A stretch of DNA of 64,000 nt, from contig NZ_JAFIDJ010000003.1 of assembly GCF_017051705.1 (NCBI RefSeq), forward strand, positions 1 through 64,000. The letters are read 5' to 3'. The notes under the pieces were generated by a model. It was not told the DNA's origin and did no database searches. It saw only the letters and a program-made list of their open reading frames with translations. The translations under genes were made by a program, and so were the position numbers. Source of the stretch: Algoriphagus lutimaris (GTDB lineage: Bacteria > Bacteroidota > Bacteroidia > Cytophagales > Cyclobacteriaceae). Shown piece after piece: positions 57,005 through 64,000 of this stretch (the first letter of the stretch is position 1; each line of letters starts with the position of its first letter).

Positions 57005-57043
57005 AAAAAAAGAGAGCTGAATCTAATTCAGCTCTCTTTTTTT
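57005..57043. terminator. Bidirectional terminator between convergent genes
   Basis: AAAGAGAGCTGAAT pairs perfectly with ATTCAGCTCTCTTT around CTA, with A and T runs at the two ends. It serves the small membrane protein (+) and the TPR gene (-). Confidence 0.88.
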
Positions 57044-60846: not shown

Positions 60847-61250
60847 AAAATCTAACTAACCAGGAAGATGCTTTTATGAAAAAACTTTTCTCAGAAGCAG
60901 GAAGCGAATCCCCTTCTATGGATTTTCATCAAAGAATACTATCTCGCATAGAAGCAAATAAAACAATTGTATATCAACCTTTAATTTCACCGGGAATTTT
61001 AAAATTATTAGGTATGGGGATTATTTCTTTAGTATTGATTACTGTTTTATTTTTACCAGGCCAGGAAAGTTCAACACCCTATTTGAAAAACATATCAGAT
61101 TTGATTTCAAGTCCGGTTTCCATTAGTTTACCTAAATTACACTTCCCTAAAATACAATTGGGACCGGTATTTAATACTTCCTTATTTGCATTTTGTTTTT
61201 TAATGGGGACTTGGATAATTTATTTAAGGAAAAAATATGATTTACAATAA
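60843..61250 (+). CDS. Putative anti-sigma membrane protein
   Basis: 135 residues. The cytosolic N-terminal part (about 1-50, AFMKKLFSEAGSESPSMDFHQRI) precedes two hydrophobic segments, at about 52-70 (LKLLGMGIISLVLITVLFL) and 108-127. No zinc-finger anti-sigma motif (H-x3-C-x2-C) is present. The four-base overlap with the sigma gene is the main evidence for the role, so it is inference. Confidence 0.6.
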   Translation: MKNLTNQEDAFMKKLFSEAGSESPSMDFHQRILSRIEANKTIVYQPLISPGILKLLGMGIISLVLITVLFLPGQESSTPYLKNISDLISSPVSISLPKLHFPKIQLGPVFNTSLFAFCFLMGTWIIYLRKKYDLQ

Positions 61251-61278
61251 AAAAAGGCAGCTCAATGGCTGCCTTTCT
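61250..61278. terminator. Bidirectional terminator between convergent genes
   Basis: AAAGGCAGC pairs with GCTGCCTTT around a six-base loop, with an A run on the left and TTTCTT on the right. Confidence 0.75.
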
Positions 61279-61297
61279 TGTGAAATTATATTGAATA

Positions 61298-61705
61298 TTA
61301 ATCTCTTAACCAATTAATGAAAGTTTGATAGCCTACTCCAATCTCTCTTGCGAAAGCTGCTTTGGTCTTCTTACCAGCAGCCTCAACTTTTTTCCACTCT
61401 TCTACTATTTTACTTTTTTCGGAATCTGAAAAAGTTCTTCTTTTGCCAGACTTTCCTTTAGTAGAACCAGAGCCACTTAAAAGGGAAATCAATTCATTTA
61501 GATCATTTAAAAATTTAGAATCTGTTAAATCTAAACCTGCAGCTTCAAGCTTTTTGATCACCTCACTTTTTGGGTTCACTGGAGTTACTGCTATTCCCTT
61601 TGCAGCAGCCTCATGTAAATCTATTTTTTCACCTTCAGCAGTCACATAAACAAAGCCATCACTTTTCTTCAGGTCGCTAATAGATTCTTTAATCAAGTCT
61701 TTCAT
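61298..61705 (-). CDS. HTH-domain protein of unknown function
   Basis: 135 residues, Lys- and Ser-rich. The C-terminal 50 residues form a homeodomain-like or transposase-type helix-turn-helix (RRTFSDSEKSKIVEEWKKV, then FAREIGVGYQTFINWLRD). The middle has a linker rich in Gly, Ser and Lys (about 78-88). The N-terminal part is not recognised. There is no transposase catalytic domain or inverted repeats, so it is probably a DNA-binding protein rather than an insertion-sequence relic. Confidence 0.6.
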   Translation of the reverse strand: MKDLIKESISDLKKSDGFVYVTAEGEKIDLHEAAAKGIAVTPVNPKSEVIKKLEAAGLDLTDSKFLNDLNELISLLSGSGSTKGKSGKRRTFSDSEKSKIVEEWKKVEAAGKKTKAAFAREIGVGYQTFINWLRD

Positions 61706-62447
61706 AATTCGAATAGTTTGTCCGATTTTTTTTTAATTAGATGCAATATATATAAATAACTAAACAGGAAAAACTTATCTAATAAATTTTAATATAATTA
61801 AATCACTTAAACATATCAATATATATTTCTCAAAAAAGGATCTAAAATGAATACCTTTTAAAAAGAACCAATGTTCACATAAATCAAGTTTACAATGAAT
61901 TTAGATTCCATTTTTTTTAGAGCCCATAGAATTCAAATTAATTTACTCAGGGAATTAGATAGAGCTTCAAGGATTATTCATAACGGCAATTAGAAGGAAT
62001 AACCCATTTGGGTCAAGTATATTTCTTTCCTGAATTAACTAACCAATTCAAAACGACTTAACTCTTTAAATTATTTAAATAAAAAGACGATTTTTTTTTA
62101 TAGAAATATACAACTGTAAATAACACTTACTTATTAAAATACTTAACACATAAAAGTCATCAAGCATATAAATAATTCCTATGAATCAATTGATAATCAA
62201 TACTTTTCAATAGAAAACAATAAAACATCAATAAATATCAGTTTGAAACAACGGTAAAAAATCAACAAAAATTGCTTGGCAAACTCTTTATAAACCATTC
62301 GAACTTGGATTTCCAATTTTCATACACAATCAGATTTGTCACATATTGTCGAGAGCTAAATAGGCTTTTAGATCAAGCTCGAAAAAATCCTTTTTCGGAA
62401 AATGAGAAAAATCAAAAGGATAAAAGCCCTTAATCGGGAATTTTCCG
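61706..62447. other. AT-rich spacer upstream of pyrG
   Basis: About 740 bases, very AT-rich. It holds one small plus-strand frame (61895-61993), the small palindrome CCCATTTGGG near 62006-62015, and CGAAAAA/TTTTTCG near 62381-62398. No RNA gene or recognised protein is seen. Confidence 0.5.
61895..61993 (+). CDS. Possible small basic protein
   Basis: 32 codons from ATG to TAG, MNLDSIFFRAHRIQINLLRE then LDRASRIIHNGN. The peptide would be an Arg-rich amphipathic helix. It has no evident promoter or ribosome site, so it may be a relic or chance. Confidence 0.25.
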   Translation: MNLDSIFFRAHRIQINLLRELDRASRIIHNGN

Positions 62448-62455
62448 TAATTTTG
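62448..62455 (+). promoter_or_regulatory. -7 promoter box of pyrG
   Basis: TAATTTTG matches TAnnTTTG. Transcription should begin a few bases downstream, at or next to the CCCC run 62458-62461. No clear -33 TTG is seen. Confidence 0.5.
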
Positions 62456-62458
62456 AGC

Positions 62459-62504
62459 CCCATAAGAATTAAACCAAAAATCATTCTGCCTCCATTCTTA
62501 TGGG
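62459..62504 (+). promoter_or_regulatory. pyrG 5' UTR hairpin enclosing the start codon
   Basis: CCCATAAGAAT (62459-62469) and ATTCTTATGGG (62494-62504) are perfect 11-base inverted arms around a 24-base loop. The pyrG ATG (62500-62502) is inside the 3' arm and would be fully paired. The 5' arm coincides with the predicted start of the transcript. There is no T tail, so it would act on translation rather than as a terminator. Confidence 0.65.
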
Positions 62505-64000
62505 ATCATCAACAAAGTACATATTCATTACAGGAGGGGTTACCTCCTCACTTGGAAAAGGCATCATTGCCGCCTCTCTTGGCAAATTGCTACAGTCCAG
62601 AGGATTTAAAGTAACCATCCAAAAATTCGACCCCTATCTCAACATTGATCCAGGAACATTAAATCCATATGAGCATGGAGAATGTTACGTGACAGATGAT
62701 GGAGCTGAAACCGATTTGGATCTTGGACATTATGAGCGGTTTTTAAATATTACTACTTCTCAAAACAATAATATCACTACAGGTAGAATCTACAACAATG
62801 TCATTACCAAAGAACGCAAAGGTGAGTTCCTTGGTAAAACAGTCCAAGTGATTCCGCATATCACAGATGAAATCAAAGCCAATTTCTATAAACTTGGTGA
62901 AGATGGTAAATACGATGTTGTCATTACTGAAATAGGAGGATGTGTAGGTGATATCGAATCCCTCCCTTTTATAGAGGCTGTTAGACAGGCTAGATGGGAT
63001 TTAGGCGCTAATAATTTTCTAGTAATCCACCTTACGCTGATTCCTTACTTAAAAGCAGCAAAGGAATTAAAAACCAAACCTACCCAGCACTCTGTCAAGC
63101 AACTTCTTGAGGCCGGTATCCAACCAGATATCTTGGTTTGTAGAACAGAGCATCACCTACCAAATGATGTGAAGAAGAAATTGGCATTGTTCTGTAACGT
63201 GCAATTGAACTCTGTCATTGAGGCAATGGATGCAGACTCCATCTATGATGTTCCTTTATTGATGAAAAAGGAAAAGCTGGATGAAAGAGTCATGACCAAA
63301 TTGAAGCTATCCTCCAAGGAAAATACAGATCTAGAAAACTGGAAAGACTTCTTGGGCAAACTTAAAAACCCTACTCAGGAAGTAACGATTGGTCTAATAG
63401 GAAAATATGTATCCTTACCGGATTCCTACAAATCCATCATTGAGTCCTTTACTCATGCTGGAGCTTCCATCGAGTGCCATGTCAACCTTAAGTTGATGTC
63501 TTCTGAAGAGATCAATGCGGGAAATTATATTGAGAAGCTTGAGGAATTAGATGGTATTCTCGTAGCTCCTGGTTTTGGAGAAAGAGGTTTTGAGGGAAAA
63601 ATTGAGACTGTAAAATATGCTAGAGAAAATAAAATCCCATTCTTTGGAATTTGCCTAGGAATGCAAGTCGCAGTTATAGAATTTGCCAGAAATGTATTGG
63701 GCCATGCAAAAGCCAATAGTACTGAAATGGATCCATATAATCCTTACCCAGTCATTGCTTTGATGGAAGAGCAGAAAAAAATTGACCAAATGGGAGGAAC
63801 TATGCGTTTAGGATCCTACGCATGCGATTTGAAAAAGGGAAGCAAGGCTTTTAATGCCTATGGAAAAACCAAAATCCAGGAAAGACATCGTCATCGCTAT
63901 GAGTTCAACAATGATTTCTTAGAGGAAATTGAGAAAAATGGTATGCTGGCGACTGGTAAAAACCCTGATACAGGACTTGTGGAAATCGTTGAAATTAAAA
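62500..64000 (+). CDS. pyrG: CTP synthase (right end cut off)
   Basis: 500 codons are visible; about 40 residues are missing at the window edge. The amidoligase domain starts [21 protein letters not shown] with [19 protein letters not shown] and the allosteric region [16 protein letters not shown]. The glutaminase domain has the nucleophile Cys in [13 protein letters not shown]. It makes CTP from UTP and glutamine. The start codon is buried in a predicted hairpin. Confidence 0.97.

Follow-up and report, generated by a model that had tools for sequence, protein, structure and literature searches.

Start-site switching at the enterobacterial pyrC and pyrD genes, reportedly worked out by Wilson et al. 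in 1992, Sorensen et al. in 1993 and Liu and Turnbough in 1994, is known to be CTP-dependent. The geometry of our locus, which an initial annotation had likened to pyrC, with a C start, a purine 2 nt on and a hairpin over the translation start, fits the Escherichia coli pyrC sequence (TATCCT-TTGTGT-CCGG and CCGGC/GCCGG). At pyrG of Bacillus subtilis, extra G's prevent termination in the leader. That gene is attenuated by CTP-sensitive reiterative transcription, and the available text of the same source describes for thyA of Streptococcus agalactiae a choice of start at T or G beside the Shine-Dalgarno sequence, the U start being prone to slippage (PMC4448216).

How does pyrG of the Bacteroidia compare with these systems? 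Starting from one Algoriphagus lutimaris locus within a window of 64,000 nucleotides, the whole stretch of DNA analysed, we consider it likely that pyrG carries a pyrC-like, CTP-sensitive translational control by start-site switching, which here acts on CTP synthase. Like pyrC and pyrD, the gene has C's at the start and a purine 2 nt further on, as judged here by sequence and register only, and a stem that joins the first nucleotides and the translation start. It differs in that it encodes CTP synthase itself, in its type of promoter, and in that the stem partner is not the Shine-Dalgarno sequence of pyrC or pyrD but CUU-AUG-G, including the start codon, or a set of Val-Thr-Gly codons; CTP dependence, shown for pyrC and pyrD, is something we infer for Bacteroidia pyrG. 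As no sequence kinship with pyrC or pyrD is evident, such a switch would be convergent, and we file the element as start-site switching in a new form rather than as a member of the pyrC leaders. With B. subtilis pyrG it shares the gene, the proposed effector and a control exerted through the first RNA nucleotides, and with S. agalactiae thyA, likewise a nucleotide gene, a choice of pyrimidine or purine start adjacent to the translation signal; unlike at Bacteroidia pyrG, no hairpin is described for thyA in the available text of PMC4448216. The contrast with the Bacillus leader, already drawn in the initial annotation, holds: the run at the start consists of C's, not of G's, and the stretch from the C-run to the ATG contains no terminator-like site, the single one found lying upstream of the promoter box at 62435-62447.

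In the window, a -7-type promoter box, TAATTTTG (TAnnTTTG), occupies positions 62448-62455 of the plus strand, on which all features of the pyrG site lie. It is followed by AG, by a CCCC run on the predicted start at 62458-62461, and by ATAAGAAT, with the ATG of pyrG at 62500. The closeness of the C-run to the box is thus as previously reported, and so is the perfect 11-bp inverted repeat with arms of 11 nt at 62459-62469 and 62494-62504 and a loop of 24 nt, which carries the ATG in its 3′ arm. The canonical +1 would be C62460, as placed by the sigma-A box of Flavobacterium psychrophilum, located at -12 to -5 (PMC9723704); the proposed alternative start is the purine A62462, at about +3 according to the purine register in relatives. 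The reading frame beginning at 62500 has a single in-frame start candidate and continues past the end of the window (62500-63999); it encodes CTP synthase (Pfam PF06418 and PF00117; 539 aa in the genome). The codons for Ile-Thr-Gly-Gly (ATT ACA GGA GGG) at 62527-62538 form the site of the second partner used by relatives, and are unused here, Thr being ACA and not ACG.

The folding energy of the 89-nt window leader is not significant, with a z-score of -0.68 and 49 of 200 shuffled sequences folding as well; the case therefore rests on conservation. A search with Rfam 15, in which E values up to 5 were considered, gave no match to the leader; its nine weak matches all fall at 61210-61342. By eye, no TTG/TTTG -33 box was seen at the usual distance upstream of TAATTTTG, and a sigma-70 promoter scan returned a single site, fewer than the mean of 3.7 for shuffled sequences. 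Perfect inverted repeats of at least 11 bp with loops of 3-40 nt number 10 in the 64-kb window, whereas six order-1 Markov sequences had 0-3 each. Terminators may account for some of the others, perhaps including the longest of them, an 18-bp perfect repeat with a 3-nt loop at 57005-57043; further inverted repeats (I2-I5) lie just upstream of the promoter box, at 62363-62450, and reach into it.

For a comparative survey, pyrG starts were taken from 80 named loci and from whole-genome draws that covered the levels of genus, family, order, class and phylum, extended with hand-picked stretches from match lists, such that only part of the genomes with hits is included. The resulting 353 pyrG loci, each with one recognisable N-terminal motif, yielded 346 distinct upstreams, 337 from Bacteroidia and 9 from other classes. 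The element was defined as a T[AG]nnTTTn box, 1-5 nt, two to five C's, a purine and a T. It is found in 230 of the 337 Bacteroidia rows and missing in 107; of 2080 control windows from coding sequence, 57 match it, and of 1685 shuffled upstreams, 58 do. Counted over the named loci, it occurs in 25 of 25 Sphingobacteriales, 27 of 30 Cytophagales, one of four Flavobacteriales, one of three Chitinophagales and not in the one Bacteroidales locus. The pattern also turns up in three outgroup rows (L345-L347), where it looks spurious; these rows are included in the totals of 233, 226, 122 and 92 rows used here, and excluded from the 230 of 337 and from the 82-row pair counts.

Within the element, the purine keeps a fixed register. 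Its distance from the box is 7 nt in 223 of the 230 Bacteroidia rows, compared with 6 of 57 coding control matches, and in 226 of 233 rows with the outgroup included, despite varying lengths of spacer and C-run (3+3 in 153, 2+4 in 60, 4+2 in 11 and 1+5 in 2 of these 226 rows); the C-run comprises at least three C's in 218 of 233. Given the F. psychrophilum box position (PMC9723704), this register places C's at positions -1, +1 and +2 and the purine at +3. The available text of the Bacteroidota start-site papers PMC7366714 and PMC9723704 does not mention pyrG.

What, then, do the first nucleotides pair with? We scored the first 12 nt from the C's onwards against the start site and against the codons for Tyr-Ile-Phe-Val-Thr-Gly-Gly. 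A duplex score of at least 14 was reached in 193 of 233 rows, compared with a mean of 8.5 for shuffled elements and 41 for reversed ones, and a score of at least 18 in 132 rows, compared with 0.7 and 0; the other 40 of the 233 pair with neither partner at the cut-off of 14. In the start class, which includes the window and all 30 other rows fetched from its genus, CC-R-UA-AG (R, purine) pairs with CUUAUGG and hence with the AUG, while in the codon class, represented by many relatives, CCC-G-UAAC pairs with GUU-ACG-GG, the Val-Thr-Gly codons. Partner classes were predicted from the leader alone, which avoids circularity; a label built on the codon itself is circular against ACG and was excluded from the evidence.

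So predicted, the classes differ at the sites of their partners. CTT precedes the ATG in 67 of 92 start pairers (genus rows excluded), in 0 of 111 codon pairers and in 6 of 113 rows without the element; the corresponding counts for G at +4 are 74, 24 and 31. CTT is not the context expected of ribosome selection, since in Flavobacterium johnsoniae an A at -3 favours initiation (PMC6847099). The Thr codon is ACG in 85 of 111 codon pairers as opposed to 14 of 122 start pairers, and within the window's own family in 15 of 15 as opposed to 5 of 46. In full-length genes of codon pairers (76 rows), ACG makes up 80.3% at the pairing site versus 15.4% among their other Thr codons; the figures are 12.2% versus 13.2% for start pairers and 16% versus 15.6% for rows without the element. 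When synonymous codons were sampled gene by gene, a procedure of low power per gene, p was below 0.05 in 42 of 128 genes and below 0.01 in 3.

These enrichments bear on whether the C's are transcribed at all. Since purines (A or G) account for 86% of the transcription starts in Bacteroides thetaiotaomicron (PMC7366714), starting on C is uncommon, at least in that species, and the C-run could be taken for an untranscribed promoter element, with the RNA starting at the purine and the pairing due to chance. We give this account hardly any credence, because the matching class is enriched for the bases that can pair only with the C's, namely the G at +4 and the last base of the ACG codon, which argues that the C's are present in at least part of the RNAs. 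It is also very improbable that the inverted repeat serves as a DNA operator for some regulator. While its arms are inverted copies of each other at the DNA level, the C-run and the ATG lie 16-130 nt apart in the codon class and 19-75 nt apart in the start class, and the stem is maintained through a G-U pair in 15 of 82 start-class rows, both of which are natural for an RNA and not for an operator.

Several rows depart from the two main pairings. In several rows of the family, the leader contains CCCGUAAG, which is able to form a duplex with CUUAUGG by means of G-U and to pair partly with UUACGGG, and which could be a bridge between the two kinds. Three pyrG upstreams with leaders of about 90 nt (L068, L226, L257) carry CCCATATAG, which finds a local match inside the leader and not at the pyrG start, the match in L068 being CTATATGG; possibly, the ATG region of a short upstream reading frame serves there as a third partner. 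In five nearly leaderless genes (L034, L037 and L039 from Hymenobacter, L145 and L241), CCCGTC runs straight into the ATG, Thr is ACC and no pairing was found; another Hymenobacter row (L038) has CCCGTTATG with CGTAACGGG. In L324 and L329, CCCGTA matches a TACGGG that lies not at Val-Thr-Gly but in a stretch by which PyrG is extended at its N-terminus, which is not significant alone (p ~0.11).

The initial annotation had staked its reading on conservation of the pairing in relatives, and the pairing is indeed conserved, with compensatory changes. Where CCCGTA leaders occur with ACG, Val is GTT in 80 of 84 rows; where CCCGTT leaders do, it is GTA in 6 of 6, three of which (L338-L340) come from one family. 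In the start class, the pairs at R+3, R+4 and R+5 are kept in 76, 69 and 58 of 82 distinct rows, exceeding the best of 500 shuffles in each case (72, 66 and 49), shuffles which ignore kinship. Pairs beyond 62467 are no better than shuffles in these 82 rows, and the outermost C-G pair, kept in 30, is at the shuffled level. Thus, the 11-bp repeat stands as such, while the part of the hairpin common to relatives shrinks to 62460-62467 with 62496-62503.

To take kinship into account, we also used tree-aware independent pairs from a tree of 266 PyrG proteins built with FastTree, on which the type of purine has changed no fewer than 20 times. The leader class is associated with CTT (5.6 versus 0.0 pairs, median p 0.03) and with the absence of ACG (6.3 versus 0.2, median p 0.03); for G at +4 the association is not significant (3.3 versus 0.0, median p 0.25), nor is it for single pair positions of the start class. 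Codon-class leaders are associated with ACG when set against all other rows (9.9 versus 1.1, median p 0.012) and against those rows that lack the element (7.6 versus 1.1, p 0.039). The purine type alone, tested against ACG, gave 6.2 versus 1.2 (median p 0.125); this test is underpowered, for which reason the partner prediction from the leader alone was used.

The first C of the run is nevertheless kept as C in 75 of the 82 start-class rows, though paired in only the 30 mentioned. This, together with the prevalence of C-runs of at least three, favours reiterative transcription, which is known elsewhere at pyrG and other nucleotide genes (PMC4448216): at high CTP, slippage on CCC would produce abortive poly-C RNAs, or extra C's that strengthen the stem, and productive pyrG expression would fall. 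On its own, slippage leaves unexplained both the covarying partner bases and the fixed position of the purine, and as the explanation of the element we regard it as unlikely; it could act together with the hairpin, and slippage in the C-run may add to start-site switching.

Would the choice of start matter for the fold? In the window, the predicted energy to open the region from -6 to +15 drops from 12.6 kcal/mol for the C start to 4.5 kcal/mol for the purine start, making it about 8 kcal/mol easier, and the mean of the start class drops from 8.8 to 4.2 kcal/mol once the C's are removed. For the codon class, removing the C's had no effect on this region (3.42 to 3.27), because the partner lies further in; the region was therefore widened to the Gly codons, and opening through these falls from 12.2 to 7.1, with the same result when AAA replaces CCC. 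Folding of a 57-nt fragment of the window gave -12.5 for a start at 62459 and -9.4 for one at 62460, and the long stem was absent for a start at 62462. The initial annotation had expected a remnant of eight pairs upon starting at this A; the minimum-energy fold from A62462 has other pairings instead, the shorter of two folded fragments giving a small hairpin, UCCAU/AUGGG, in contact with the AUG. Of its pyrC-like reading, the conserved pairing, the involvement of the C's and the register are borne out, while this picture of the A-start fold is not. Modelling thus predicts that the C-start RNA folds over the translation start and the purine-start RNA does not.

When whole leaders were folded, the mean pairing probability between element and start site was 0.84 in start pairers, with at least 0.5 in 96 of 102, and between element and Val-Thr-Gly-Gly codons 0.86 in codon pairers, with at least 0.5 in 77 of 84 when 4 short leaders are excluded; as the classes are defined by pairing, all that follows from this is that folding, too, favours the duplex. 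That the stem is predicted as the main fold in both classes would also suit a fixed translational brake, in which every RNA begins with the C's and the stem does no more than keep CTP synthase at a steady low level, or react to temperature, CTP not being sensed. Such a brake leaves unexplained that the run consists of C's and coincides with the start, that its first C persists although it has no partner, and that the purine stays 2 nt past the canonical start; we consider it a poor candidate.

The comparative data, which at the level of sequence demonstrate the fixed register, the pairing, the covariation and the use of the C's, support the existence of a C-start RNA that pairs. With C's on the expected start, a purine 2 nt on and a gene whose product makes CTP, start-site switching is the economical reading. 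Both starts are presumably used, RNA polymerase beginning either on the C's at the canonical start or on the purine 2 nt downstream. By analogy with pyrC, the level of CTP would set the choice; in bacteria, start choice follows the levels of the initiating NTPs (PMC5730371). When CTP is plentiful, transcription would begin on a C, and the initial C's would pair with the translation start region, that is, with the AUG in the window and with the Val-Thr-Gly codons in many relatives. The stem would presumably block ribosomes and hold down translation of CTP synthase. When CTP is scarce, the start would shift to the purine, leaving the RNA without the C's; the stem is predicted to be lost, and CTP synthase would be made.

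Is the element specific to pyrG? The genome of the window contains TANNTTTGNNNCCCRTA 3 times, and 2 times backwards, and only the pyrG site pairs downstream; the other two lie before a pgi-like reading frame and antisense within a pgk-like one, both named by eye from their translations. Among 33 matches examined in this genome (3 of TANNTTTGNNNCCCRTA and 30 of 42 of TANNTTTGNNCCC), 11 pairs form at pyrG only, the others reaching at most 8; one of the 12 TANNTTTGNNCCC matches outside the examined 30 is the pyrG site itself. Across 69 genomes of the order, the pattern has 116 matches as compared with 132 backwards, with 28 of the 116 just upstream of pyrG by hand count. Being no commoner than the backwards control, the pattern is not enriched beyond pyrG.

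Going beyond the single switch, we lean somewhat towards an evolutionary scenario in which a Bacteroidia-wide CTP sensor, independent of pyrC, operates without protein or ligand pocket. The polymerase would read CTP through the first nucleotide, and the initial C's would constitute a 5′ antisense tag that moved several times between the start codon and codons ~6-9, fixing synonymous codons. Among the literature matches listed, in which subscription journals are thinly covered, no title concerned pyrG control in Bacteroidota, which is weak evidence of absence. If the scenario is true, a large bacterial group possesses a simple feedback circuit for CTP synthase, start-site switching emerged anew on a different gene with a different type of promoter, and RNA pairing explains a case of synonymous codon choice. 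It would also offer a rare view of a regulatory RNA changing its target, between start codon and nearby codons, while its sensor is kept. Beyond the end of the window, in L082, a long reading frame follows pyrG after 45 nt, which, judging by its first residues, we take to resemble YidC; if the two are cotranscribed, the switch could also affect membrane-protein insertion.
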